Shown here piece after piece: positions 885-44,237 of a DNA stretch of 64,000 bases. Origin of the DNA: Nymphaea colorata. Its lineage: Eukaryota > Streptophyta > Magnoliopsida > Nymphaeales > Nymphaeaceae. The notes below the pieces were generated by a model. It was not told the DNA's origin. It did no database searches and saw only the letters and a list, made by a program, of their open reading frames with translations. The position numbers and the translations under genes are program-made. The DNA lies in NCBI RefSeq assembly GCF_008831285.2, contig NC_045145.1:21468040-21532039 (forward strand), read 5' to 3'. Each line of letters opens with the position of its first letter. Position 1 is the first letter of the stretch.

Positions 885-1507
885 CCGTTCGCGCTGTTCT
901 TGAGACTGAACCCATGAATGCTTGTTACTTTCCGCAACGCTTTCCTCCACTTCTTCTTCTCATCCGCACTCGCACTTCGGAACCGACCCTGAGAATGCCT
1001 GTACCAGCACCGAACGTCGTCCGGTTCTATGTCGAAGAATATGGGGACGATATCCACACTCTGGTCCGTCTTCATCACCTCCACCATCTCAGTGACCTCC
1101 TTCAGGCACCAAATGGAGTCGGCGTAACTCTTAGAGAATATGGGCAGCAATATCCTCGATTCTCTGACGTGCTTCAACAAGTTTTCGATAGGTTCCCCCT
1201 TCCCCAAATCATTGTTGTCCATGAAAGCGCTGACGTTACTCCGTTTAAGGTCCTTATACAGATGGCTGACGAATCTGTTTCTGATGTCTTGCCCTCTGAA
1301 ACTCAGAAATGCGTCGAACAGGAATCGTTTATCATCATTCTCATGTGCTGACGAAGAAGCGGCTCCAATAGGTGGTGACGGTACATCGCCTTCAAGGTCG
1401 GTAGGTCCTGGAGAGACAGGCGGCTCCCGTGTGGTCACTACCCTGATCGTGTACAGCAGCAGGCCAATGAAGATGATAAAGGCCACCAGTATTGTAAAGC
1501 CGTCCAT
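885..1507 (-). CDS. Membrane-anchored TIR-domain protein, first exon (gene incomplete in window)
   Basis: The first exon encodes about 208 residues. Residues 5-22 form a hydrophobic helix, likely a signal anchor, followed by a Pro/Ser/Asp-rich linker (about 27-59) and a TIR domain (about 60-203). The start of the domain reads FDAFLSFRGQDIR, followed by a BB-loop region near 97-105 (NNDLGKGEPIE). The conserved SIWCLKE motif places the NADase glutamate at E137. Plant TIR domains cleave NAD+ and make ribosylated nucleotide signals read by EDS1 dimers. The exon ends at 885 in a good donor (CGG|GTATGT, phase 2). Reading on past it gives a stop 13 codons later, so an intron is likely. I see no NB-ARC or LRR exon between 1 and 850, so this is either TIR-only or a gene leaving the window. 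The start at 1507 is the first Met and directly precedes the membrane helix. The gene is divergent from the SAG101 array that begins 1.55 kb away. Confidence 0.88.
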
Positions 1508-3062
1508 TACTTGATCTGTCGGCCGGCAATTAATTATCTAACTGCCACCCAGCACTTTCGAGCAGACGAGCAATCAGTCGGCGACTGTTGCTGTAAGGCT
1601 GCAATGGAGGAGAAGAGAGAGGGAGAGAGAGAGATATGTGGCTTGAGTTAAGCCGTAGATGGGAATGCTGAGTGAAGATGAGTTGAGATACCTGCCATGG
1701 CATATATGCAGCCACGGGCCCTGCGCAATTTCTCCTAAGGGGAAGAAGAGATGCATACGACAAGATCAACGTTGCAGAGTCTTTCACGGCATCCGGCAGG
1801 CACCTTCGTCGTCAATGGGATGGATGCAGGCACGTTGGTCGTCAATGGGAAGATAAATGACTAAAATACCTTTAGTTGATACGGTAATGTAAAAACAATA
1901 ATAAAAATTTTAAAAAAACTATAGAAGATATTTTTTTAACAAATTATTAAAATGTCCTTCTCTTTGGCAACTCACTTTCCTTGACAAGAGAAGGCCTAAT
2001 GGCACTATTTGGCTCATTCATATTTGCCTTAAGGAAAAAAAAATGTGGAAAGATAGTAATAAGTTTAACTTACATCCAATTTTTCTAAGTGGCCTCTTAT
2101 TTTTAGTTTTATGATTATTTTTTCGGTGTCTGGTGGACAAAAGTTTTAGAACTTTCCTTCCACCTCGGCGTTATGAACATGTGTTTGATGGGACGAAGAA
2201 ATTTCTTAACATTTACCTATGAGGTTCCTCCGATAAAAGATTCCCATGAACAATTTGGTCAAACAATTTTGGAAAGGCAAGTCATTAAATTCCGTCGTTT
2301 CTCGAGCCAGTGAAATTTGTCGTTCCTCGCGATGGACTTCACGTGGCGATTTAATAAAAGGCCGTCTAGTGGGCAGAAGAGAGAATGTGATTGGGGGAAC
2401 ATCTCCCTTGGACTTTTTAGATAAATATCTTATTATATCCAGCTGCTATTCATTTCCAAAATCTATTCTTGTTGTTCAATTCAATTGTGCAGTGGATTCG
2501 ATGTAAAAAACGAAAGTTGGATTCTAAAAATAAAATTCAAATACAACAACAGTATGGGATTTTATTCGTTCATCTTCCAACTCGAGTTCAATGGGATGCG
2601 CCTCAAGGTAGGGTTGATTGGAACCATGTCCGTTCATATCGCTTCCTTTGATCCACGATTCAACATACTCCCCAGCCAGAGTTACAGTCCATTTTCAAGC
2701 CGCCATGCAAGGACGAAGGCAGATGTGGATTTTGGCGTTTGTCTTCACCTTCTGCCAAGCCAATGGCTCAACGTCCTTGGTCGTTGTCGTTTACGCGTCC
2801 GGCGCATCATCTAACGTCCAATCCAGTGCCGGCTATCGCATGTGAACTTGCAATTAAAAATCCTTGAGTTGCGATCTGATCTTATGCATTCTTCAACTTT
2901 ATGCGGAATCTCCTTCTCTCTCTGGCTAAGAATCGTGCTCTTCGGCTCTCCCTTCCTCTCTCTGTGTCTGAAAAACTTTTTGGTTCTTCGGCCGCCTCCC
3001 ACTCTCTCTCTCCCTCTCTCTCTCCCTCTCTCTCTCCCACACACACACACACACTGATAGAC
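1508..3062. promoter_or_regulatory. Divergent intergenic region between the TIR gene and SAG101-L1
   Basis: This 1.55-kb spacer separates two outward-facing start codons, so it must contain both promoters. Next to the TIR gene is a GA/CT-rich stretch (about 1611-1645) of the kind common in plant 5' leaders. Next to L1 is a CT then CA repeat leader (about 3001-3055). A short imperfect tandem repeat (about 30-bp units, AATGGGA shared) lies at about 1797-1856. I identified no defence cis-element with confidence. Confidence 0.5.
3001..3055 (+). repeat. CT/CA microsatellite leader of SAG101-L1
   Basis: A (CT)n tract interrupted by CC, followed by (CA)n, ends 8 bp before the L1 start codon. An in-frame ATG at 2901 runs through this tract without a stop, so initiation there would add a 54-residue low-complexity extension. 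Confidence 0.85.
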
Positions 3063-4997
3063 ATGGAAGCATCGTGGAAGTTCAGTGGTGGAGTGGCGAA
3101 GGCGAATCTGATACTGTCCGGTACGCGGATCCTCCACCGAGCGTGGGAGTTCATCTCACAGATCCAACAATCTCCCAGATCAATCAGCTTCGCCATCAGG
3201 GAGCTTCCCCGCTTCACGATCCTCGCCTTCAATTCACGGAGTCGACCGCAAGACGTGCTGCCAAATTTCGAGTCACTGGTTGACTCCCATCCTCTGAGCT
3301 TCCTCATCACCAAGGACAACCCCTCCGTTGCTCTCGACAGCTTCCCTCTTTCCACTTTCTGCACACTCTTAGAACACCCCGATCTCAAGAACAAGGTGGG
3401 ACTACCACATAAAAGAGGGAAACTGTTCGCAATTCCATGACGGCTACTTGTCTGTTTCTTTTCTTAGAACAGGTTGCTCCTGATATATACTGATCTCCAG
3501 GAGGCACAATTGGCTAATGGTATGTATGTCTCTTTTCGTGGAACAGCTTAAGACACTAACCGCCAAAAATCAACCAAGGCTCATAGTTGTTGGTCACGCG
3601 GAAGGGGGAGCAGTGGCTGCCTTATTCACGCTATGGCTTCTGAAGAACAGGTCCTCCGCAGCACTGCCCTTATGCATCACCTATGGATCCCCTTTTATTG
3701 GAAACAAAGGACTCCAGACAGCCATTGGCAAGATGGAGCAATCGAAGTCTCAATTCTGGCACGTCCTCAGTCTTGACGATCCCGTAATTTCCTCCTGCGG
3801 CTTCCTTGAATCAGCCGAACTACAGTTCAAACCTTTTGGCACCTATCTTCTCTTATCAGAATCAGGTTATGCTTGTATCGATGACCCCGATTCGGTAATC
3901 GAGCTGTTGAGATCAGCAGATTCAGCTCAAACGGAACCCAAGGATTATGGAGCCATGCTTCAGCAACTAGAGCAGAGCACCAAATACAGAAAATGCAACG
4001 TTCAGGTCACTCCTTCCAATGACAGTCTAAAAGTGGATTTGGCTCTACAATTACAAACATTGGAAATTGGCTACAATCATCTGGTATTCTCTCTTTGTCT
4101 CTTTCTCGAATATTTTGTGTGTGTGTGGAACCATTAAACGTGAAAACTGATTAAGTATTGTTTTGAAAGAAGCAGGGTGAGGATGCCCTTCTTCAAGCAA
4201 TGGAGAAAAGGCACAGAAGCGAATGGAAGAAACCGACTCACAACTCGAAGAAGCTCAACAACATGAAAATGAAAATGGCCCAACTTGAGTGGTTCATGAA
4301 ATTCTGCGAGAAAGGAGGCTGCAACTACTATGATTATTACAAGAGACCAGAGAACTCTGGACGTGAAAATGTAAACGTTTGGACTGATATCAAGACCTTC
4401 CTCGTCGACTACTGGAAGAAGGAGGTGAATAAAGTAGAAAACAAGCCACAAACACAAGATGCTCAGTTCCGAGACAGATGGCTCTTCGGAGGAAACAACT
4501 ACAGAAGGATGGTGGAGCCTCTGCACATTGCTGAATACTACACAAAAGGTGGTACGGACTACCTGAATCGCAGAGAGGCTCACTTTGCAAAGCTGGAGGG
4601 TTGGGAACAAGCGGATTCTGCGAAGGAGGAGAAGAAGGGCGACGCTCCAAAGAAGGAGGAGCCGAAGGGGAAGAGCGCGGCTCCCAACGTCACGCACGAC
4701 TCGTGCTTCTGGGCTCGCGTGGAGGAGGCTGCGCTCAAATTGCCTGAGCTCGAGAAAGGTGGGGAGGGCAAGATAAGGCAAGAATTGAGAGAGTTTGAAG
4801 ACTACGTCATGAAACTGGTGAACGACTATTGGTTGTCGCCTGATGCTTTCTTTGAGGGAAGCTCATTCATGGTGTGGTGGCGACGCTACTGGGAGATGTT
4901 ACAGAGGGTAGAACCAGATTCTGATCGAGATTCCCGCCCGTTTATTGTTTTCATGAGCAAAGACGGATATCTCAATTACGTAAATTCAGCTCAGTGA
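3063..4997 (+). CDS. SAG101: SAG101-like EDS1-family protein L1 (three exons)
   Basis: Exons 3063-3395, 3547-4083 and 4176-4997, with phase-0 introns of 151 and 92 bp, give 563 residues (Arabidopsis SAG101 is about 540). Exons 1 and 2 encode the alpha/beta-hydrolase-like domain with FTLWLLKN, CITYGSPFIG and KPFGTYLL. Exon 3 encodes the EP domain: MAQLEWFMKFC, NNYRRMVEPLHIAEYY, HDSCFWARVEEA and FMVWWRRYW. SAG101 forms heterodimers with EDS1 that sense TIR-made nucleotides and recruit NRG1-type helper NLRs in nucleus and cytosol. The nucleophile elbow reads GHAEGG, so Ser is replaced by Ala (A129) and this copy should not hydrolyse esters. The usual Asp in EPLDIA is His. The start at 3063 is chosen because paralogues align from this Met; an in-frame ATG at 2901 is the alternative. 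Most compact member of the array. Confidence 0.92.
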
Positions 4998-6934: not shown

Positions 6935-9900
6935 ATGGAAGGTTGCAAGTTCAGTGGGGGCTCAGCGAAGGCTAACCTGATTCTCTCCACAGGCATCCTT
7001 CAAAGGGCGTGGACCTCCGTCTCCGAGCTCCAACAATCGGGCAATCACCATCTCCCCTTCGTCGTCAACGATCGTTTCCACAACATCACAATCGTAGCTT
7101 TTCATGACTTGCAGAACCAGACGCAAGACCTCCACCTCCTCCCACCCTTTCTTGCTCCCCTGCAGCAAACCCATCCCGACTTCGGCTTCCTCATCACCAA
7201 GGACAATCCCTCCATCTCCCTCCACGCCTCCCCTCTCTCCACCTTCCTCCGCCTCCTCCGCACCACCGACCTCAAAGCCCAGGTATGTACGCCTTTACTG
7301 CTTTAGTTTCTTTCTTATCAACGATTATGTAGCTGCCCACCTTCTGCGCTCTGTTCTGCATATGTTGAACTGAAGATTTTCTGCAGATCTTTTGTGAATC
7401 CCAACCTTTCCCTCTCTGATGCGTTTAAATCCAAGCTTGAATGGCAAAACTCGGGTGGTGCCCAGAATTAATCGCACCTTTCCCCGTTCTCCGGCACCGG
7501 AAATTCATTAAGTTTCCCCCCGCGGAGGGAGGATAGGAATTGGGGAACATTTGTCGCGCGCCATGCTTTCCTGTAAGGCGTTTGTTGAAATCCCCATTTG
7601 GGAAAAGGATTTCATTCCTTTCATGAGAAAGCTACCCATTTCGTGTAGCAGGGAGAAGGGGAAAATGGGCACCTGAAACAGAGTAATCCTTTAGGCAGAA
7701 AGTTACCCTTCGACGTTGGTTCAACGAAGAAAGGAGCCTCTTTCCGTTGAATTGCATCGTTTGGTTTGAAAGCAAAGAGTCGAAGTCTTCGTTTGGGTAA
7801 TGAAGAGGTATTCATTTGAAAAATCTTTACATGTTCCTTTTCTTTACCCTTTCGGGATGCATTGAGGATTTCTCCAAAGAGTGGGTGATGGGTGCCCCTT
7901 ACTCGGTTTGACTAAACTCGAAGAGGCACCAGACCAGCCTGAGTGGGCTCGGTGAGTTATCGGGCTGGCCCGATAATGGGTTTGATAATATTTTTTAATA
8001 TATAATTTATTATTTTACATATAAAAAAAAGGACTAAGCAGAGCTTTGGATGGTAGCACAAATTCAGGTTTTGGGGGCAAAACTTGATTTTGTCTCTAAA
8101 ACAAGTTTTAGAGGTGTTTGGATGATTTGAAAACTGTGTTTGATTAAAATTTAAGAGGCATTGAATGACACCCTCACCTAATCCAGTCTTTCTGGAAATC
8201 TGGTTTTATGAAAACCAAGTTTCTTAATGGGTTTTAAAAACTTTGTTTTTGTTTTTGTCTAAAACCTAGTTTTTGAATAACCAAAGGGAGGGCTGGTTTT
8301 ATGCTTTCTTTTGCAAAACCTGGTTTTGTCAAAACTGGGTTTCTTCAAGCCCAGTTTTGATGGCACCAACCACTTTAAAAACATAATTTTTGTGATGTCA
8401 TTCAAACACCTTCTAGTTTTTAGAAAACCTGATTTTTAACATAGGGGAGGTCCTCTGGGATGCTCTCAAAGAAGAACAGATTTTTCAATTAACTTCTTAA
8501 CATACAGTATTCCACTCAAAGTGGGTTGAGAATGCCATCAAGTGTGTTTCATATTCTATGTTGATCAATGGTAAGGAAGGAAAACGTTTTGGTAGCAATA
8601 GGCAAAAGGAAAAAGAATGCCCATTACAATTTTCAAATATTTGAATCTGGCTCTTACTAAAACTTTGAAAACTATTAGCCAGCCATATGAAAATGAGTGA
8701 AAGATTTAGTTCCCCTCAGTCACTACTTACTCTTGGTGTTCTGTTGTTTTTGAAACAAGCTTCAAAGATCAACAGAAAAGAACAAGCCTCAGCTCATACT
8801 TGTGGGTCGGTCGATAGGAGGCTCGGTTGCTGCTCTATGCACACTGTGGCTTCTAAAGAACCAGTCGTCCCCTTCGCTTCCTCTCTGCATCACCTTTGGA
8901 TCTCCGCTCGTCGGAGACGAAGGTCTCCGGAAAGCCATCGACGCTGTTGAGCAATGGAAGGCCCAATTCTGGCATGTTGCAGGGCACGACGACGTAATTC
9001 CGCGACTTTTTGCTTGTCGGCCGACGGGTCAGAATTCATGCAGCCAGTGCAAACCCTTCGGCACCTACTTTCTCATTTCCGACTCCGGCTGTACCTGTGT
9101 TGATGATCCGGACTCGGTCCTTGAGTTGCTCGACCTCACTTCTCCAAGCTTGGACAAACTGCCAATGCAACTGCGGCCAAAGAACTACGGCGTTTTGCTA
9201 AAACAACTCGAGAAGAAGCCACTCTGCAGGAGCAGAAATATTCAAGCTGCCCGTTTCCAAGAAAGCCTTACTGTAGATTTGGCTCTACAGCTGGACTCAG
9301 TTGGCATTGGGTCCAACCATCTGGTAAGAAAAGCATCCTTCTTCTTTGTTGATTCACCATTCAATCAAAATGATTTGATGGCTAGCTAGGCGAGAGTTCT
9401 GATTAGCCCCAAGCGTTGCTTGAATACATGGCGGCTTGAGCATTCAACTGGCTTTTCTAAATTGGACTAGCAAGCTTATTGAAGGATTACAGTGTTTTTC
9501 TACATAAATCAAACCAGTTTAAATTCATGAACTGATCACTTGAGATCTTGCATACTAGCATTCACGCACTTTCCTTCTCATACCCTTCTTCAGAAATCTG
9601 ATGAGTACGATTACTACATGCATTTTGTGATGCCATTAATTTAGAAACACAAAGAGCTGCTTCAATCAATGGAGGGAAGAGAGAAAGAAGTGCACCTCAA
9701 ACGGAAAAGCGCCCCTAATCCTTCCAAGAGACTCAACGAAGTGAAGAAGCAAATGGCCCGTCTGGAGTGGTACAAGAAAGAGTGTGAGTCGAAGAACACG
9801 ACCTACTACGACTGTTACAAGAGCAGGAGAACGGCGAAAGACATAGACGTCATTAAATTCAAGAACATACTCAACAACTACTGGAAGGAGAAAGTGGAGG

Positions 9901-10439
9901 AAGCCGAGAACAAGCCGCAGCTTCCGCACGCTCGGATGAGCGTCAGGTGGCTCTTCGGTGGAGTGACCTACAAGCGTATGGTCGAGCCCCTCGACATCGC
10001 CGATCACTACCGGAGAACCGGCCGCGGAGACTACATGGCAAAAAGACCTCGCCATTATGAGTTACTGGATAAATGGCACGAGGAAGATGACAAGAAACAC
10101 AAGGCGGCGAAGAAGACGAAGAAGGAGAAGGGCACAAGCCTCACGGATGACTCGTGCTTTTGGTCTCACGTTGAGGACGCTGCACGAAGGCTGAATGAGC
10201 TGAAGAAGGAAGGGAGAATCGCAGGAGGCAAGAGCAAGGAGGACCTGTGCAACGAACTGCGGGAGTTTGAAGGCTATGTGATGAAGTTGGTGAACAACTA
10301 CGAGTTGTCCCCCGAGGTTTTCCTGGAGAACAGTTCGTTCATGGAGTGGTGGAATGAGTATGAGAAAGAGCTGGAGCCTGGTTACAGTTCACAATTTGTT
10401 GCTTTCATGAAGGATAGACGCTATGTCCATTACAAATGA
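6935..10439 (+). CDS. SAG101: SAG101-like EDS1-family protein L2 (three exons)
   Basis: Exons 6935-7282, 8760-9323 and 9645-10439, with phase-0 introns of 1477 and 321 bp, give 568 residues. The lipase-like half shows LILVGRSIGGSVAAL, so the GxSxG nucleophile Ser is kept (S134), followed by CITFGSPLVGDEGL and KPFGTYFLIS. The EP half shows MARLEWYKKECES, TYKRMVEPLDIADHY, DDSCFWSHVEDA and SFMEWWNEYEKEL. A Lys/Glu-rich loop (KKHKAAKKTKKEK) precedes the DSCFW motif. Role by family: EDS1 partner in TIR-driven immunity. Exon 2 has no ATG near its start; it begins with CTT after TTTTTGAAACAAG, and the frame is continuous from exon 1. Closest relative in the array is L3: exon 3 and the 3' flank (for example GAGGTTCC after the stop) are very alike. 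Intron 1 carries transposon-like sequence. Confidence 0.92.
7870..8035. repeat. Possible hAT-like fragment in intron 1 of L2
   Basis: A GC-rich patch (GAGTTATCGGGCTGGCCCGATAATGGG) followed by AT-rich DNA resembles the interior of the hAT-type element at 32671-33006. Ends and target duplication are not visible, so this is at best a fragment. Confidence 0.3.
8110..8415. mobile_element. Inverted-repeat element in intron 1 of SAG101-L2
   Basis: AGAGGTGTTTGGATGATT near 8110 is answered by GTCATTCAAACACCTTCT near 8398-8415 in inverse orientation, giving a foldback structure of about 300 bp rich in AAAACTGGTTTT-type words. A related stretch (GTTTCTTAATGGGTTTT) occurs in opposite orientation near 12840-12870 in intron 1 of L3. 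No target duplication was resolved. Confidence 0.5.
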
Positions 10440-11591: not shown

Positions 11592-14500
11592 ATGGAAGGC
11601 TGCAAGTTCAGTGGAGGCAGAGCTAAGGCCAACCTGATTCTCTCCGCAGGCATCCTCCAGAGAGCGTGGACCTCCATCTCCGAGCTCCAACGTCGACGGA
11701 GCACTACTGACGCGTGCCCCTTCGTCGTGGACGACACTTCCCCCAACTCCACAACCTTAGTCTTCCTGCGGCATCATGTATCTGCCTTCATTCAGCGCGA
11801 CGAGCGCCGTCGTCTACCCCTGCAAACCCATCCCCACTTCGACTTCCTCACTACCAACGGCAACCCTTCCGTCTCCTTCAATGGAACCTTTCTCTCCGTC
11901 TACCTCAGCTTCCTTCAATCCACCGATTTCGGAGACCAGGCATGTCCAATCTCTACCTGTTTCATTTCTCTCAAGAAATTTTCTTTTGTGAATTACAATG
12001 TCGAGAAAGAAGGCATAAAACTTTTACATTTCGGAGACCAGGCATGTCCAATCTGTACCTGTTTCATTTCTCTCAAGAAATTTTCTTTTGTGAATTACAA
12101 TGTCGAGAAAGAAGGCATAAAACTTTTACTTGGTTATCATCACATGACAACAACTACTTAGTGGAATTTTGTCTTCGTTTTTAGAATATTGGAGTTGGGG
12201 CGAAACCAAGATTTTTTTGATGGGCCGGCCAAACAGTCCATCAAACTTATTCGGATAGGGCCAAACTAAATCCGAGTAGGGTCAAACTAAATCGGAATAT
12301 AAAAGACACATTACCCAACCAAAGTTTTCCAATTTTTATAATGTAATATTTTTTTTGCAAATAGTTGGGGCGGGCCACCGCCTAGGTTGAGTTTGAGGAA
12401 ACATAGTTTTGTAAAACTAATGTTGAGTTTGATATTAGAATGTAACATTCAAGGCTACATAAAAAAGTGTGTTTTCTAGATGATCTTCAATTTAGTTGAA
12501 CAAACTGGAAATCTTACTACCATATATTTTAAATTCAAGGCTACATTAAAAAAGTGTGTTTTCGGGATCCTCAATTTAGTTTGACAAACTGGAGATTTAC
12601 TACCATAGAATTTAAATCCATGCTACATGTTAAAAGCCATATATTTAAAGTAAGATGGGAAAATTTTAAATCCATGCTATATGTTAAAAGCCGGTAAAAT
12701 GGAAAGAGACCTGACCTTATAAGATCTTATGATTTCAAATCACCTCAGACCTGAAATTCATAGCTAAACAAACACAACCGAAGTGAAAAGCTTGACTTCC
12801 CTCATATTATTCATAAAAAGAAAAGCTTTGTAACAAATAAACCAAGTTTCCAAAACCCATTAAGAAACTAAGTTTGTATAAATTGACATTCTTACAAAAC
12901 TAGGTTAGATATGAATGTTATCCAAAACCGTTCTTACAGTGGGGTTAGGTAATAGCCTTAATAATAATTGGCCTCTCAACACATATACCATATGATAGCA
13001 GTCAGCTAAAAACCCAAATTGTATAAAAAAAAAAAAAATTAAGGGCATTCGGGTCTGGAGAAAGCGGTTGCTCTGTTATTACCATCTTTTATCTTGCCTG
13101 GTTAGGAAGAGGATGATATCTGATTGTAAAACAATAAGTTGACATGATAAGGACTTGATTTATGGTACCAACTAAGATGGTCATGAACATCAATCTATTA
13201 ATTTCTAGTTAATGTTTATTAACAAATGTACGGTTACCTTTATTTAGCTTGTTTTTGAAGTTAAATGCATAAATTAAAAAATATACTATAGTTTATACAA
13301 AGTGGGTGGCGCATGTACCAGAAATTAACTTAGAAACGTTTTGTGACATTAAAAAGTAGTTGACATTGAATTGCCTATATAAATATCGAAGGTTGATTAT
13401 AAGTTTTACTATATTTTAATGTGAAAGAGAAGGATGTTAAAGTATGAATAGAATACCAAATTAATTTTATAATTAAGTCGTTAGGCCCAAGCTTAGGGGA
13501 TGAACCGGCAGGAGCCATGCCTCACTTCACCACCAATTTGATCCAACTGTTTTATCTATCTGCCCTAAAAACTCAAATAATTTAATAAAAAAGTATGTTA
13601 CAATATGTCATATATCTACCCAAAAAATTGCAATAATGTTCTATTAATGTATCCCAACTGTTTTTTTTGACAAATACATAATTATTGTTATAATGACAAG
13701 GTTTTCTGGAATTAATGGGAGCATGTCAAGGTTGATGTGTAGCGGGTTATGTACATCATATTGTTTTCGTGCACTAGGTTATGGTAAATGAAAAAAAAAT
13801 CCTAGTTAATAAAAAAAATTGTATGAAAAAAGAAAATTTTAAAAATGAATATTTTTTAAATAATTTATAAAATATCCCAACTCCTTTTTCTTTTCTTTTC
13901 TTTTTCTTTTTTTTTTTTTTTTTTGCGCACTCACTCTCAGGTTTCTGAACCGTTACTGACGCTTCTCTCTCGCTTTCTGACATCACAAAGCTTCAAAACC
14001 TGGAACTTACTCAAAAACGAAGAAGAAATAACAAACAGCTGATAATTGTTGGTGAGGAGGAAGGAGGCGCGATTGCTGCTCTTTGCACGTTGTGGCTTCT
14101 AATGAACTGGTCGTCCCCCTCGCTACCTCTTTGCATCACCTTTGATGCTCCGTTCATCGGAGGCGACGAACTCCAGAAAGCCGTCGGCACTGTTGAGCAA
14201 TGGACGGCCCAATTCTGGCATGTCACCAGGCGACGCTACGACTGGCATTTTTACTCCGATTCCGGCCGGTACGAACCCTTCGGCACCTACTTTCTCATTT
14301 CCGACTCCGGCTGTGTCTGTGTTGATGACCCGGATTCTGCCCGTGAGTTGCTCCAAGTTAAATCTCCAAGTTCGGATGGGCACTTCCTTGACAACGACCA
14401 TGGCCGTCGATATTCCGGTTTAAAAGAGTACGGTATGTTGCGGAAGAAGCTTGAGAAGACGCCTTTACCCAAAAGCAGAAATATTGAAGCGACTGGTTTC

Positions 14501-15693
14501 CAGGAATGCCTCATGGTAGATTTGGCTCTGCAACTAGACTCGGCTGGAATTGGGTTCAACCATGAGGTAATTAGAAATCCCTCTCTCCTTGTTGATTCAC
14601 CATTCAACCAAAATGATCTGATGGCGTAGGAGATGCCAATTTATTCAAAAACTAACATTACCAAGTCGTCGAACAGCAAGACGGGAGAAATCACGTTCCA
14701 GATGAGATATATTTATGCATGAATTTGTTGGTACACAAAGTTTTTCTAAATAAAGTCAAAAAATCTGTATAATATTCATGAGCTCACTTAGATCATGCAG
14801 ACTAGCATCACGCACTTTCTCTTTCTCATGCCTTTCCTCAGCAATCAGCAACAATCTGATGCATGCAATTACTGCACGCATTTTGTGATGCCATTAATCA
14901 GAAACACCAAAAGCTGCTTCAATCAATGGGGGAAAGAGAGGAAGTAGCGCACCTCAGCCGGAAAAGCGCCCCAAACGCTTCCAAGAGGCTCAATCAAGTG
15001 AAGAAGCAAATGGCCCGTCTTGAGTGGTACAAGAAAGAGTGTGAGTCGAAGAACATGACCTACTACGACTGTTACAAGAGCAGGAGCACAGAGAAAGACA
15101 TGGACGTCATTAAATTCAAGAACATACTCAACAACTACTGGAGGGAGAAAGTGGAGGAAGCCGAGGACAAGCCACAGCTGCCGGACGCTCGGATGCGCGT
15201 CAAGTGGCTCTTCGCTGGAGTGACCTACAAACGCATGGTCGAGCCGCTCGACATCGCCGATCACTACCGGAGAACCGGCCGCGGAGACTACACGGCAAGA
15301 AGACCTCGCCATTATGAGTTACTGGAGAAATGGTACGAGGAAGATGATAAGAAAAACAAGAAGGAGAAGAAGAAGGAGGGGAAGGGCACGAGCCTCACGG
15401 ATGACTCGTGCTTTTGGGCTCATGTTGAGGAGGCTGCACTGAGGCTGAATGAGCTGAAGAAGGAAGGGAGAATCGCAGGGGGCAAGAGCAAGGAGGACCT
15501 GTGGAACGAATTGAGGGAGTTTGAAGGCTATGTGATGAAGTCGGTGGACAACTACGAATTGTCCCCCGAGGTTTTCCTGGACAACAGTTCGTTCATGGAG
15601 TGGTGGAAGGAGTATGAGAAAGAGCTCCACCCTGGTTACAGTTCACAGTTTGTTGCTTTCATGAAGGACAGACGCTATGTCCATTACAAATGA
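11592..15693 (+). CDS. SAG101: SAG101-like EDS1-family protein L3 (three exons, GC donor)
   Basis: Exons 11592-11939, 13991-14566 and 14902-15693, with phase-0 introns of 2051 and 335 bp, give 571 residues. The nucleophile elbow is GEEEGG, so Glu (E139) replaces Ser and hydrolase activity should be absent. A basic stretch, QKRRRNNK, sits just before it. EP motifs are intact: MARLEWYKKECES, TYKRMVEPLDIADHY, DDSCFWAHVEEA and SFMEWWKEYEKEL. Role by family: EDS1 partner in TIR immunity. The intron-1 donor at the position used by the paralogues is CAG|GCATGT, a GC rather than GT donor, and it lies in a 102-bp tandem duplication. If splicing fails, exon 1 reads on to a stop near 12160 and gives a truncated lipase half. 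Exon-2 start (AAAG|CTTCAAAAC) is set by frame and paralogue alignment. The gene may therefore be intact, alternatively spliced or weakly expressed. Confidence 0.85.
11926..12129 (+). repeat. 102-bp in-frame tandem duplication across the L3 exon 1 splice junction
   Basis: Units 11926-12027 and 12028-12129 are identical but for one base (CTCTACC versus CTGTACC). Each contains the last exon-1 codons (TTCGGAGACCAG) and the GCATGT donor. Because the unit is 34 codons long, both copies stay in the same open frame. Confidence 0.95.
12188..12380 (-). mobile_element. Interspersed-repeat fragment (copy 1) in intron 1 of L3
   Basis: GGGGCGAAACCAAGATTTTT through AGTTGGGGCGGGCCACCG matches, in reverse orientation, the block at about 45970-46165. 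Both share GGGCCAAACTAAATC, ATTACC(C)AACCAAA and AATTTTT(A/G)TAAT words in the same order. This type of GGGGCGGA sequence is typical of decayed plant retroelement ends. Confidence 0.6.
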
Positions 15694-17118
15694 GAGGTTC
15701 CATCCAACATGTTCATTTCCTTGTAAAATTTAGTTCCTTTCATTTTGGAAGAAGCCGTATCTATGGAAAAAGTAACAATTGCGCCTCAAAATTTTTCGTT
15801 ACATCAGTGGATCATGTTACAGGTGGGACGTTGATCAGATATAATGGTGGTCTCGATCTTTGTCTTGTCTTTGCTCTCTCTTACATAACCACCACTACAT
15901 CTGATCAACATTCCTAGCTCCTGATTCATGATCAACTGTGGAATTATTCTCATTTCTTACAAAAATGGCTACGTAATTTCACGTATTAGTTGGAAGTGTC
16001 TCTCCAACGCTTCCTTTCCTCCCGCTTCCCCTGCATCACTTACCCTTCTGTTTTCCATTACGATCACCTCCTACTTGGTTTTAGTACATCTCAATTTTAC
16101 TGTGGCAGAATCCAGCCTACGATTTCATTATTAATTTAGGGATTGACTTTTCTCACGCTAACTAACGTTGTTTGGTGCCCATTGATGGAGGACTGTGTTT
16201 GATTTGCCATTGTTGTATGGTGGAGAAGGAATCCCCCCGTGCAATGTTCTCTTTCCACCATCCCATTTGTAAATCCCTGAGGCTGGCTTGCAGGAATTTG
16301 TTTTCCGATCTAAACAATCAATTGCTTGTAATTTAGTTTCCATGCCATAAGCAATAGCCTTCTTACGAGCCATCTCTTTCTGCGATCCTTCTTATTATAT
16401 TGACTTTCATGGGAAAGTTTTGATCTGTATAAGCATTCTTACCGCCTATGTATAGGAGGCAAATGTTCGCTTCATTCAAGCAATTCAATGATGGGTAGAA
16501 GGAGTTCTGCTTCTTTGAACAGTGCCGGTTTGAGAGAGAGAGAAGGCGAAGACGAAGCCTTTGAAAAGAGAGGCCGATCGATTTCCGGAAAATGAGAAGG
16601 GAAATGGGACGGAAGCTTCGTTAACAGGAGCTTGGACGCATATTTACTTTCTTATAGCCCTTCCTTCTGACACACGGGAAGAATCATTAATGATTTCCTA
16701 CAGGTGGAACCTTTTAATCTTTATTAGCGGGCGTTTGATATATCCAGAATTCTAAACTTTTACAATCCAAATGCTTTATTTTTTAAAATTAGAATTATTA
16801 AACAAACGCCGTATTTTGTTTCTAAAATTAAGAAAATGAAACTTAGAATCTTGGTTCCATTTCAGTTTAAAGACGAAGAATATATATATATATGTGAAGT
16901 AATTTTAATCATTGGGCCAATATATTTTTGTGTGAGATTATCATTATTGAAACCAAAAGAATCCCAAGTCCCAGCCCAGAGCGGGGAACCTCTCTTTTTC
17001 TTTCTCTCTTCCTCTCTATCTCACAGAAGCTTCAGCGCCCAATAATTGACGTTGGATCGACACTCCACAAGACCTTTCCAAGGAAGCAATCTCTCTCTGA
17101 ATTTCTAGGTAGTTGTCC
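15694..17118. other. Intergenic; duplicated upstream sequence of the broken copy
   Basis: The L3 3' UTR begins here and resembles that of L2. From about 16465 the sequence shares blocks with the L4 upstream region (GCTTCATTCAAGCAATTCAA near 16470 and 19182; AATGAGAAGGGAAATGGGAC near 16591 against a near match at 19301) and from 16645 with the L3 upstream region. From about 16990 it resembles the L2 leader (CAGAAGCTTC, GCCCAATAATTGA). Confidence 0.55.
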
Positions 17119-17385
17119 ATGAAAGGTTGCAAGTTCAGTGAGGCAGAGCCAAGGACCAACTGATTCTCTCCACATGCATCCTCCAAAGGGCGTGGATTTC
17201 ACGAGCCATCATCCTTCATGGTGGACGACTTTTCTACAGGTCTTCCTGGCGTTGAACTAAGCTTATACAAACCCCATTCCCACTTCGACTTCCTCACTAC
17301 CAACGACAACACCTCCATCTCCTTCCGCGATCCCATTCTCACCGCCTTCTTCAGACTCCTTGAAGCCACCGACCTCGAAGCCTAG
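17119..17385 (+). pseudogene. Broken SAG101-like exon 1
   Basis: The sequence starts like exon 1 of L2 and L3 (ATGAAAGGTTGCAAGTTCAG). It then loses a G at TTCAGTGAGGCAG, which shifts the frame, and lacks a stretch after GGGCGTGGAT where paralogues encode TSISELQ. The final codons read GAAGCC then TAG just before a preserved GTATGT donor. The following ~200 bp resemble the start of L2 intron 1 (TCGCACCTTT, GTTCTCCGGC), so a genomic segment was copied, not a transcript. No matching exon 2 or exon 3 is seen before L4 begins. Confidence 0.85.
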
Positions 17386-18452
17386 GTATGTTCAACCTCT
17401 GCCTGCTTGATTCATCTGTGTAATTACCTTCCGCAAATCTTTTGCCAATTATTCCAATGTTTCCATCCCTTATGTGTTTTAAGAGCAAAAACTCGAATGA
17501 TTCCCGGAAATCGCACCTTTGCCGGTTCTCCGGCGCCGAAAGTTCCTCAACTTCCGTCTGCAAGCCACCCATTTCGCGTAACTGGAAAAAAAAAAGGTGG
17601 GGAAGGAAAAACAACACCTGCAACAGAGTCCCCTTGAGCTGTTTCTGGGAAAAAACAAAAAATCAAAAAAAATGGTGACCGCCCCATCGGTGGTGTCAGT
17701 GCTTCAGATCTCTGCTAAAGAACAAACCTGATCAATTGCTGGAATGTAACATATGGCTCCGGTTTGGGCTTATTCCATATGCTTGGAAGGATTGTTAGAG
17801 ACAAGGAAGTTTGCCTTCAGATGATGTCTTTGCTTTCGTTAATTAAAGGTGAAAAGTAGCAACGTTTGGACTGAGGTCTGCTGATGGATCTCAGTTCATA
17901 TCCTCTTTGCAGAAGCTTCATTCGAGGCTTTGGTTTTCTGAAAGGATTTTAGATATCGGATTATTGATGGGCATATCATGGAGAATGACATTCATAGGGT
18001 TTTCATTAGCTCCGATCAGCGAATGTCACCGGCAAGTTTCAGCCATTGTGAGCCGCGACTGGTCATTTTCTTGAAATGACCTTTTTGTGATGTTGCACGC
18101 TCATTTGTCTTTGTTATGTTTGTTAACTGTTCATCACGAATGACGAATTTGGTGATTATGCATGTGAGATTATGAAGAACATAAACTAAGTTAGTTGTTT
18201 TTTTACTGAAATAATATTTTTAAATAAAAATGAATGGCTCTTCTAACAACAAAATTTTGATAGCAGAAAGATTTTTTTTTTTTTACAAAATACTTAAACC
18301 AAAGCATGGTTTACTTTAAATTCATGTTTAAGAACATATTAAAAGGTTCACATTTTGGTTAAAGTTATCAATCATGACTATTTATCATTGTTTTTCTCTT
18401 AATTATTCATCTATTTTAAATGGATGGTCTCGATACTAAAAGTCATCATTGA

Positions 18453-19489: not shown

Positions 19490-23819
<4,330 letters not shown>

Positions 23820-41365: not shown

Positions 41366-41845
41366 AAGAAAAATATTAAAAACAGGGAAAGCGTGATCGG
41401 AGGATCCAGAGCAGCCATTGACCACATCCCTCCAGAAGTGGAACATGCAGCATGGCAGTTTTCCCTCTCTGTCTCTCTCTAGATTCACTCCCCACCTGTA
41501 GAAATGCTTCTCTTCCTATACTTCTCTTCCTATATTCACTCTCCACCTCTCTCTTCGTCTGCCTACATTTTTGTTCTCTCTCTAGAATCTCTCCTCGCCT
41601 CAGAAACTGAACGAATGCCGCTTTCTCTCACCAAGCCTATCTCCTACCCTCGCCTCTGTTTCTACCTGTTCAGCTCCAGAAGCTCTCTCCATCGGGACGA
41701 GGGGAACTAGGACGAGTGCCACCATCACTAAACCAGAAAGGAAGACAAGCAGTTCCGACGAAGAGAAGAGAGGAAGAGAGAGAGAGAGAAAGAAACAGGG
41801 GAGAGGAAAGAAGTTTTGAGGAGGAAAAAAGGAAGGGAGGGAACA

Positions 41846-44237
41846 ATGACTCTGCTCCTCTTCTTCCTCTTCCTCTCGCTCTCCTGCCTCTCCGCAAACG
41901 GCAGGCTCTCCTACAACTACTACGAGAAGAGCTGCCCAAAGGTGGAGGAGATCGTCCGGGACGTGATGGTGCAGAAGCAGATCCTACAGCCCACCACCGC
42001 CGGCGCCACCGTCCGCCTCTTCTTCCACGATTGCTTCGTCGATGGCTGCGACGCCTCCGTTCTTCTATCCTCCACCCCCACAAACAAGGCCGAGCGCGAC
42101 GCAGACATCAACCTCTCCCTTCCCGGCGACGGCTTCGACGCCATCGTCCGTGCCAAGACCCAGCTCGAGTTCAGCTGCCCCGGCACCGTCTCCTGCGCCG
42201 ACATTCTCGCCCTTGCCACTCGCGACCTCGTCACCATAGTAACTCTCTGAAACTCCTGTCATCATTAGCAACATGCACACCAAATTCATTCGTTTGCATT
42301 CTGAATGCAATTGCAGCACGGAACCCATTCTTTTTTGGAGATTTTTTTTTTTTCCATGTTGGCACTAGGACTCTTCAATATATATCGCGCTTTATGTCCT
42401 CTTATATCACCAAATTATAAAGAAAAACGGAACTGAAAATGGCGTATCCTGCGTTCTTTGAAGCAATTCCGTGTCACAAATGTCATTATAAACGGATCAG
42501 TTCACGAATAGAATTGTTGCTGACATAGAGATAAAAGAAGATCAGCAACTTGATTCCGATTATTCAAATTTCATCCTGCTAGATGTTGGTATTAGCTTTC
42601 AACATTCACATGTTTACGAAACTTCGGAATTTGCATTTTGGTAGGACAACATTCATGCTTTTATATGAATTTGTTCAGTGCCTGCACGTTACTTTTGTGG
42701 AAATGGTGAACTTTTAATAGTTAGGTACACTTGGTTGATGTTGCCTCATTACCTGAATGTTTATCTGAGCGGGCGGAGAATTTCTTACGATACATATGTG
42801 TTTTAGTTGATTCATGCTGTACCTATGAATAATTACGTGGAAATACAGGTTCTGAAGTTGGTGTCGGGACTCTCACATTTCCTGATGATTTATGAAGGAT
42901 AGAACTCACTCCACTGGAAAGGCAAAAGCTCCTTCATAAAACTGAACTATTAAGCCACATTTTCACCTTTGTGTCAGTGTCATATAAATATATAACGATA
43001 TGAGATTGCAAAGTGGGTGGAATGCTTTGTTGAAAGTTGCATGCGAAAACAAACTTGCTTACTTCTTAATCAATGTTTCGCATTTTGAAAAATGTAGGAA
43101 TTTTCTTATCAATGTCAAACTGCAGTTTCTGTAAATTCCTTTTGCAAAAAAGCAAATTATTTTAGGAGGTTCACATGTGGTGTTCTATTCTCTCTTGTCA
43201 AGTATTCATCTTGTGTAAATGAAACATTTCTCTTTCTGGTTAGTTTGCACATTTTCCCTCAGCCTTTGTATGCCATACAGCAGTTTCTGCAAAATTCCAA
43301 TAAAGCATATTTTCTGCACATGTATTTCTCTTCTCGTTGGATTGCAGTTTATCAAGTATTGCTAATTTGTGGCATTGGATTGTAAAAGATGTCGTGAAGA
43401 ATACGGAGATCTCCATCCCATTTCTGCTATTCGTCTTTTAAACTGCGGGAAAATTTTTATCAGTGGGTTACTGATTGAGGAGGTGCTTTCCACTATGGAT
43501 GAATAGGATGGTTTCATGTTTCCTTTCTTGTTTAAACTGATTGCCCAAAAGAAGAAACTACTTTATTCAACTTTTTCAGACTCACAAAGTGCTCGGTCTC
43601 CTGAAAAGAATGTGATTAACCAATGTCTTATTTTTTTGTTTATGGCATCTGATGGCAGACTGGAGGGCCTTACTACAAGGTGAGGCTGGGCAGGAAGGAC
43701 GGCCGTGTATCTGATGCTTCTCGTGTAGAGAGCAATCTGCCTCTGCCAACAATGACTGTAACACAGCTAGCCTCTGTTTTTGCAGCGAAGGGATTCTCCA
43801 TTGGAGAAATGGTGGCCCTTATTGGCGCCCACACCATTGGCTTCTCTCATTGCAAAGAATTTGCCAAGAGGCTGTACAGCTTTAGCCGTGCATCACCTGT
43901 TGATCCCTCCATGAACACAGTCTTGTCTCAAGCATTACAGAAGGCCTGTGCAAACTACACCAAGGACCCTACCATGTCTGTGTTTAATGATGTAATGACC
44001 CCAGGCAAATTTGATAACATGTACTACCAGAACCTTGAAAAGGGTCTTGGCCTGCTAGCTTCTGATCAGGTTCTTTACACTGATCCGCGAACCAAGGTGT
44101 TTGTTGAACTGTTTGCCAGAAACCAAACTGCATTCTTCAATGCATTTGTTGACGCCATGGACAAACTGAGCATTGTGGGAGTGAAGGTTGGGAGGAAAGG
44201 AGAAGTTCGAAAGCGGTGTGATATGGTCAATACATGA
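41846..44237 (+). CDS. Secreted class III peroxidase (two exons)
   Basis: Exons 41846-42238 and 43659-44237, with a phase-0 intron of 1420 bp, give 323 residues. Residues 1-19 are a signal peptide (MTLLLFFLFLSLSCLSANG). The distal haem pocket is TVRLFFHDCFVDGCDASVLL with R57 and H61, and the proximal haem ligand is H189 in MVALIGAHTIGFSHC. All eight structural cysteines are present. These haem enzymes use hydrogen peroxide to oxidise phenolics in the apoplast (lignin and suberin formation, wall cross-linking, defence). SLPGDGFDAIVRAKTQLE and VFNDVMTPGKFDNMYYQNL resemble the Arabidopsis PER31/41/63/65 group. The start at 41846 is the ATG giving a proper signal peptide. The C-terminus ends soon after the last Cys, with no vacuolar-type extension, fitting secretion. 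Exon 1 is distinctly more GC-rich than exon 2. Confidence 0.95.

Follow-up and report, generated by a model that had tools for sequence, protein, structure and literature searches.

In Nymphaea colorata we found a gene for a TIR-NB-ARC-LRR (TNL) immune receptor, TNL-C, standing head to head with a gene of the SAG101 type, SAG101-L1, at the left edge of a 64,000-nt stretch of contig NC_045145.1 (C8:21468040-21532039; this whole stretch is the window below, and plain positions are positions in it). The linkage is real, it has been duplicated as a block, and it is undescribed as far as the literature searched shows: no description of a TNL-SAG101 gene pair was found there, in keeping with the initial annotation of this DNA, which knew of none (subscription papers and preprints were outside the scope of the search, and sources cited here by PMC number were covered in part). 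We consider it rather probable that the linkage is an accident spread by tandem duplication, with the encoded proteins acting in the ordinary pathway from TNLs to EDS1-SAG101, and not a dedicated co-regulated module.

Duplication of the head-to-head unit

The ATG of TNL-C is at 1507 on the minus strand and that of SAG101-L1 at 3063 on the plus strand, so that a divergent spacer of 1,555 bp (1508..3062) lies between the two start codons. The pair belongs to a 66-kb cluster (C8:21426159-21491855) with three open TNLs and six SAG101-type genes, arranged in the order SAG101-0 (+), TNL-A (-), TNL-B (-) head to head with SAG101-B (+), remnants, TNL-C (-) head to head with SAG101-L1 (+), and then SAG101-L2, L3 and L4 (+). 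One of the three TNLs (TNL-A) and four of the six SAG101-type genes (SAG101-0, L2, L3 and L4) are without a head-to-head partner.

The head-to-head unit is present in two intact copies, B and C, and a decayed one. Units B and C align from C8:21463093, beyond the 3′-end of the TNL, to 21473711, beyond the SAG101 stop, with the spacer included and with blocks of 71-91% nucleotide identity. The decayed unit, situated between them, retains TIR pieces at C8:21453010-21456098 and short matches to SAG101 flanks; no SAG101 coding sequence was found in it by tblastn. A single neighbour pair is therefore ruled out by the duplication of the whole TNL-spacer-SAG101 unit. Copia-like retroelement fragments (L009:416-4299; open reading frames named by eye, with one SH3 domain match) are located between the decayed unit and TNL-C.

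Synonymous divergence (dS, by YN00) between TNL-B and TNL-C was 0.126 in the TIR, 0.103 in the NB-ARC, 0.051 in the LRR1 and 0.019 in the LRR2 part, and dS between SAG101-L1 and SAG101-B was 0.036. Because these values are low, the duplication of the unit is recent; the unevenness of dS along the two TNLs suggests gene conversion, as far as such a pattern can be interpreted. The dN/dS ratio was about 1 for SAG101-L1 versus SAG101-B and from 0.52 (NG86) to 0.75 (YN00) for TNL-C versus TNL-B, with the reservation that constraint is hard to judge from the small dS between such recent duplicates.

The TNL gene

Exon 1 of TNL-C (885..1507, minus strand) encodes an N-terminal hydrophobic stretch (best 19-residue hydropathy 2.67), a linker and a TIR domain (Pfam TIR, E = 1.1e-31), and has a phase-2 splice donor at its low end. 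The hydrophobic N-terminus may anchor the protein in a membrane. The Glu of the WCLKE motif, residue 137 of TNL-C, is aligned to the Glu of ROQ1 WCLEE and has what we take to be the position of the catalytic Glu of the TIR domain; the domain is a candidate for enzymatic (NADase) activity.

On the same strand, to the left of the window, one exon with an NB-ARC match and two exons with LRR matches in Pfam follow (C8:21467996-21466874, 21466680-21466393 and ~21466301-21464973). The joined model of ~1,120 aa has the architecture hydrophobic anchor-TIR-NB-ARC-LRR, with Pfam matches obtained on separate exons; all TNL joins are predicted from sequence, the exon 3/4 junction was placed tentatively at one of two candidate points separated by 12 bases, and the last intron is provisional. 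The first 716 residues match ROQ1 with 374 bits over query residues 63-715, from the TIR through the NB-ARC into the start of the LRR. Joined models of TNL-A, TNL-B and TNL-C (~1,120-1,140 aa) are open from start to stop; the LRR1 piece of TNL-A and the LRR2 pieces of TNL-A and TNL-B have one stop each, but these pieces overrun the exon ends of the models. The post-LRR domain C-JID is present in RPP1 and ROQ1, and some TNLs are without it; a search of the last LRR exons of TNL-C and TNL-A gave no match to C-JID up to an E-value of 0.1.

Two other readings of the gene were rejected. A TIR-only gene of 217 aa, read past the splice donor and ending at 851, is contradicted by the phase-2 donor and the acceptor of the NB-ARC exon, which are common to the three paralogues. 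Membership in the conserved TIR-only family (~200 aa) is excluded by the NB-ARC and LRR exons that follow in the gene; this TIR-only group is also reported to be absent from Nymphaeales (PMC9806590).

The initial annotation had placed a TIR exon with the Glu in WCLKE (E137) at 885-1507, divergently arranged with SAG101-L1 at a distance of 1.55 kb. The Pfam match and the ROQ1 alignment bear out the coordinates and the number of the Glu, and the ATG positions bear out the arrangement and the distance. Two corrections are due: by the predicted gene model, the TIR exon is the first exon of a full TNL extending beyond the window, and the TIR-SAG101 pair is not single.

The SAG101-type genes

SAG101-L1 (3063..4997, plus strand) has three exons (3063-3395, 3547-4083 and 4176-4997) without an internal stop and encodes a protein of 563 aa with a lipase-like and an EP domain (Pfam Lipase_3, 2.1e-14; EDS1_EP, 2.5e-57). 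Its best match among proteins with solved structures in PDB is Arabidopsis SAG101 with 219.6 bits, against 132 for PAD4 and 77 for EDS1; for SAG101-L2 the scores against these solved chains were 254, 173 and 128 bits, respectively. The nucleophile Ser of the lipase is missing in SAG101-L1, where GHAEGG is aligned to GAALGG of Arabidopsis SAG101. L3 (GEEEGG) is also without this Ser, and L2 (GRSIGG) and L4 (GESLGG) retain it; the trait is, therefore, mixed across the array. SAG101-L1 is a candidate for binding EDS1 and ADPr-ATP or di-ADPR and for recruiting NRG1.

The array continues to the right on the plus strand with SAG101-L2 (6935..10439; exons 6935-7282, 8760-9323 and 9645-10439; 568 aa), SAG101-L3 (11592..15693; exons 11592-11939, 13991-14566 and 14902-15693; 571 aa, 67% identical to L2), a decayed SAG101 exon 1 remnant (17092..17417, tblastn pieces, with repeat families D3, D9, D13 and D16) and SAG101-L4 (19490..23819; exons 19490-19828, 20677-21207 and 22794-23819; 631 aa, extended at the C-terminus). 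Together with SAG101-B, five SAG101 models were made, and all of them are open. A 102-bp tandem duplication (99% identical copies, 11926-12129) is situated across the exon 1/intron 1 junction of L3, where the splice donor is GC instead of GT. L4 exceeds L1-L3 by 60-68 aa within 22794-23819, and a stretch of ~50 aa of L2 and L3 has a second match in L4 (41-44%), which suggests an internal duplication near the C-terminus of the L4 EP domain.

SAG101-0 (C8:21426159-21429155, plus strand; a partial model mapped by tblastn) was the most divergent SAG101-type gene. Its EP domain nevertheless resembles SAG101 more, with 138 bits against 79 for PAD4. In a midpoint-rooted EP tree of 13 rows, in which a long-branched Arabidopsis SAG101 was the sole foreign row and PAD4 had no row, SAG101-0 was placed outside the other SAG101 rows, the one from Arabidopsis included.

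Among SAG101 paralogues, dS by NG86 was above 1 in every tested pair except L2/L3 (0.36) and L1/B (0.04), the values for several distant pairs being given by NG86 only and being near saturation. With most paralogue dS values above 1, the SAG101 array probably predates the whole-genome duplication considered below.

The divergent spacer

Comparison of the spacers of units B and C in 100-bp bins showed 82-96% identity over the 800 bp on the TNL side, 72-84% over the 250 bp on the SAG101 side, and an unrelated middle part (38-45%). The C spacer has ~445 bp (2307-2750, approximately) with no counterpart in B, and the B spacer has, at another point, ~480 bp (C8:21445085-21445567) with no counterpart in C. 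TNL-A faces no SAG101, yet its upstream region has matches of 70-81% within the TNL side of both spacers; that half of the spacer is, therefore, the TNL's own upstream region and not a property of the pair.

Motif counts in the spacer were compared with those in 300 mononucleotide shuffles. Four TTGAC cores were observed against a shuffled mean of 3.34 (131 of the 300 shuffles were as high), and there was one full W-box (238 of 300 as high). The GCC-box occurred twice (6 of 300 as high; this was one of six motifs tried, with no correction applied). CT repeats were strongly enriched, with 18 occurrences and no shuffle as high, a low-complexity feature near 2996-3038. With TTGAC cores and W-box near the shuffle level, a shared WRKY-driven promoter was rejected for lack of evidence. 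In the spacer we see nothing that points to a conserved shared promoter; at such low divergence one could still be there.

TIR, EDS1-family and helper genes in the genome

With the TIR exon of TNL-C as a query, TNL-B was matched with 385 bits (84% identity) and TNL-A with 372 bits (83%). The best match outside the locus had 132 bits and 48% identity, and no match of more than 50% identity was listed outside C8 (best 150 of 254 candidates). TNL-A, TNL-B and TNL-C thus look specific to this locus. A genome search with PF01582, in which the best 150 of 256 candidates were scored so that TIR counts are lower bounds, listed matches on 13 of the 14 contigs C1-C14 (none listed on C10) and on C316.

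The search with PF18117 gave 14 matches from 14 candidates: six SAG101-type genes in the cluster, one SAG101-type gene on C3 (184.9 bits against SAG101 and 86.3 against PAD4), a decayed C3 copy (C3:19203759; 127 of its residues match the C3 gene with 75% identity), five EDS1-type genes and one EDS1-type remnant. The five EDS1-type genes form a tandem array (C8:21825940-21860002; L038-L042) at ~335 kb from the SAG101-TNL cluster; one member was compared with the solved chains (164 bits to EDS1), and the others are 48-67% identical to that member. All EDS1-type genes and six of the seven SAG101-type genes are therefore situated within ~0.45 Mb of C8. EDS1-type remnants were observed inside the cluster (C8:21450722-21451374, minus strand; 88 residues of it match an array member with 90% identity) and beside it (C8:21421106-21421504, plus strand). 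One more open reading frame (L010:3712-4143, minus strand) looks EDS1-like by eye and has no Pfam match.

No PAD4-type EP domain was seen among the 14 PF18117 matches, five of which were compared with the solved chains and the rest assigned by similarity. PAD4 is present in most seed plants, according to the portion of the source covered (PMC9806590), and the lack of a PAD4-type match could be due to loss, to an assembly gap or to limits of the search.

RPW8 matches numbered 20 in the genome and were situated on C3 (C3:21523439-21641197), on C4 (C4:16855118-17265780) and, in one case, on C9. As there was no RPW8 match on C8, the candidates for helper nucleotide-binding leucine-rich repeat receptors (NLRs) of RPW8 type are unlinked to the SAG101-TNL locus.

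A homeologous segment on C3

The C3 SAG101 gene (C3:17868946-17872214, +) is followed by a peroxidase gene (C3:17888530-17891073, +), an order which mirrors SAG101-L4 and the Pfam-supported peroxidase gene of the window (41732..44237, plus strand), a syntenic anchor outside the immune unit. The two peroxidase genes match at 74-75%, with dS of 0.82-0.89 over 356 codons. A peak of whole-genome duplication in N. colorata near dS 0.9 is given in the covered portion of the genome paper (PMC7015852). The peroxidase dS fits this peak, and the C3 segment would then be a homeologue produced by the whole-genome duplication.

No TNL was found near the C3 SAG101 gene in 38 kb reaching from ~13 kb upstream to ~22 kb downstream (best tblastn E-value 0.16), and the nearest TIR among the C3 matches listed, at 21.2 Mb, is 3.3 Mb away. 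This internal comparison speaks against an obligate TNL-SAG101 pair. The initial annotation had held that SAG101 arrays in relatives with no TIR gene nearby would make the linkage accidental; such a SAG101 gene is found once, inside the same genome, but a TNL may as well have been lost from C3 as gained on C8, and the two cases are indistinguishable.

Interpretation of the linkage

In the usual view, one pathway is made up of unlinked layers: TNLs, EDS1-family proteins and helper NLRs. In the reading that we prefer, a locus-specific lineage of TNLs with a putative N-terminal anchor would have become the neighbour of the SAG101 array once, a single origin being presumed, and two or more tandem duplications of the TNL-spacer-SAG101 block would then have yielded the two intact units and the decayed one. 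In favour of this reading are the TNL-free C3 homeologue, the half of the spacer that belongs to the TNL, the differing copy-specific segments of the two spacers and the dN/dS of about 1 between SAG101-L1 and SAG101-B. The proteins would act in the ordinary way: upon activation by an effector, the TNL would form a tetramer, its TIR active site would make ADP-ribosylated nucleotides, and EDS1-SAG101 would bind these and recruit a helper of NRG1 type. This pathway is reviewed in PMC10442000 and PMC12856790.

Several observations weigh against an accident. The 150 listed TIR matches form 46-65 clusters, and with the 31,580 genes of N. colorata (PMC7015852) one would expect only ~0.29-0.41% of genes to border such a cluster, which makes the adjacency unlikely for any given gene; 0.16% of the genome lies no more than 2 kb from a listed TIR. 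Of the three EDS1-family loci with intact genes, one borders TIR genes; the question of adjacency was raised after the fact, and the duplicated units, which are not independent, amount to a single event. Furthermore, all three TIR matches listed on C8 are TNL-A, TNL-B and TNL-C, inside the SAG101 cluster, and with EDS1 remnants in and beside it the partners of the pathway gather more than simple accident suggests. Both genes are open in the two surviving copies of the unit. Finally, with most SAG101 paralogue dS values above the level of the whole-genome duplication, the C3 homeologue may have lost a TNL rather than never had one.

A rival reading is a co-adapted cassette, in which the TNL is kept with an adjacent SAG101 that is the main reader of its product or of its membrane site and the spacer provides joint induction. 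We hold it possible, if doubtful. The duplication of the unit together with its spacer, the low base rate of TIR adjacency, the lack of a close TNL relative elsewhere among the genome matches listed and the room for specialisation left by seven diverged SAG101 copies agree with it. On the other hand, the C3 SAG101 stands without a TNL in its vicinity, the cluster includes five genes that lack a head-to-head partner (TNL-A and four of the SAG101 type), the number of TTGAC cores is close to the shuffled mean, and the spacers, apart from their unalignable segments, differ by 4-28% per 100-bp bin, mostly above the coding dS. The fullest form of the idea, a private cassette in which a TNL and a SAG101 paralogue share inheritance, duplication and induction, with membrane-anchored signal production and a dedicated receptor subunit, is in our view unlikely. 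Of the inherited immune module proposed by the initial annotation, the close divergent linkage stands, strengthened by its duplication with the spacer; a shared promoter is unsupported, with TTGAC at chance level, and obligate pairing is opposed by C3.

Less likely still, the TNLs and the extra SAG101 copies are drifting duplicates of little present function: the dN/dS near 1 for SAG101-L1 versus SAG101-B and the intermediate values for the TNLs would agree with this, as would the decayed unit, the exon remnant and the EDS1 remnants in and beside the cluster, but three TNL and five SAG101 models are open, the Pfam domains score far above the cut-off, and the dS values carry little information on constraint.

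With neighbours of the sensor and receptor-subunit kind amplified as a unit, in the genome of a flowering plant that probably diverged early and has seven SAG101-type and five EDS1-type genes, the locus offers a natural system for asking if SAG101 paralogues are specialised toward particular TNLs, in which the recent duplicates (dS ~0.02-0.13) and the TNL-free C3 homeologue are built-in controls.

Comparison with known systems

In the EDS1-SAG101-NRG1 module, as here, the TIR enzyme and SAG101 represent successive steps (PMC10442000, PMC12856790); descriptions of that module concern function and co-evolution across species, and no physical TNL-SAG101 linkage was found in the literature covered. 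The Arabidopsis pairs CSA1-CHS3 and RPS4-RRS1 likewise have a TNL head to head with an immune partner, with a spacing of 3.9 kb in CSA1-CHS3 (PMC4350097) against 1.55 kb between TNL-C and SAG101-L1. In both of these pairs, however, the two partners are NLRs needed together, whereas the partner here is a SAG101-type subunit of an EDS1-family signal receptor.

TNLs of the flax L6 type have an N-terminal signal anchor. TNL-C resembles them in the order of a hydrophobic N-terminus, a linker and the TIR domain, and its TIR domain matches that of L6; the best overall match of TNL-C is, however, ROQ1, and its anchoring is predicted. In bacterial Thoeris operons, a TIR protein that makes a signal is encoded beside the reader of this nucleotide signal. 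The receptor there is unrelated and the setting is a bacterial operon; the likeness would be one of arrangement. If a private TNL-SAG101 cassette were true after all, new TNL specificities could spread together with their own reader, and the unit would be a plant counterpart of an operon of signal maker and signal reader.

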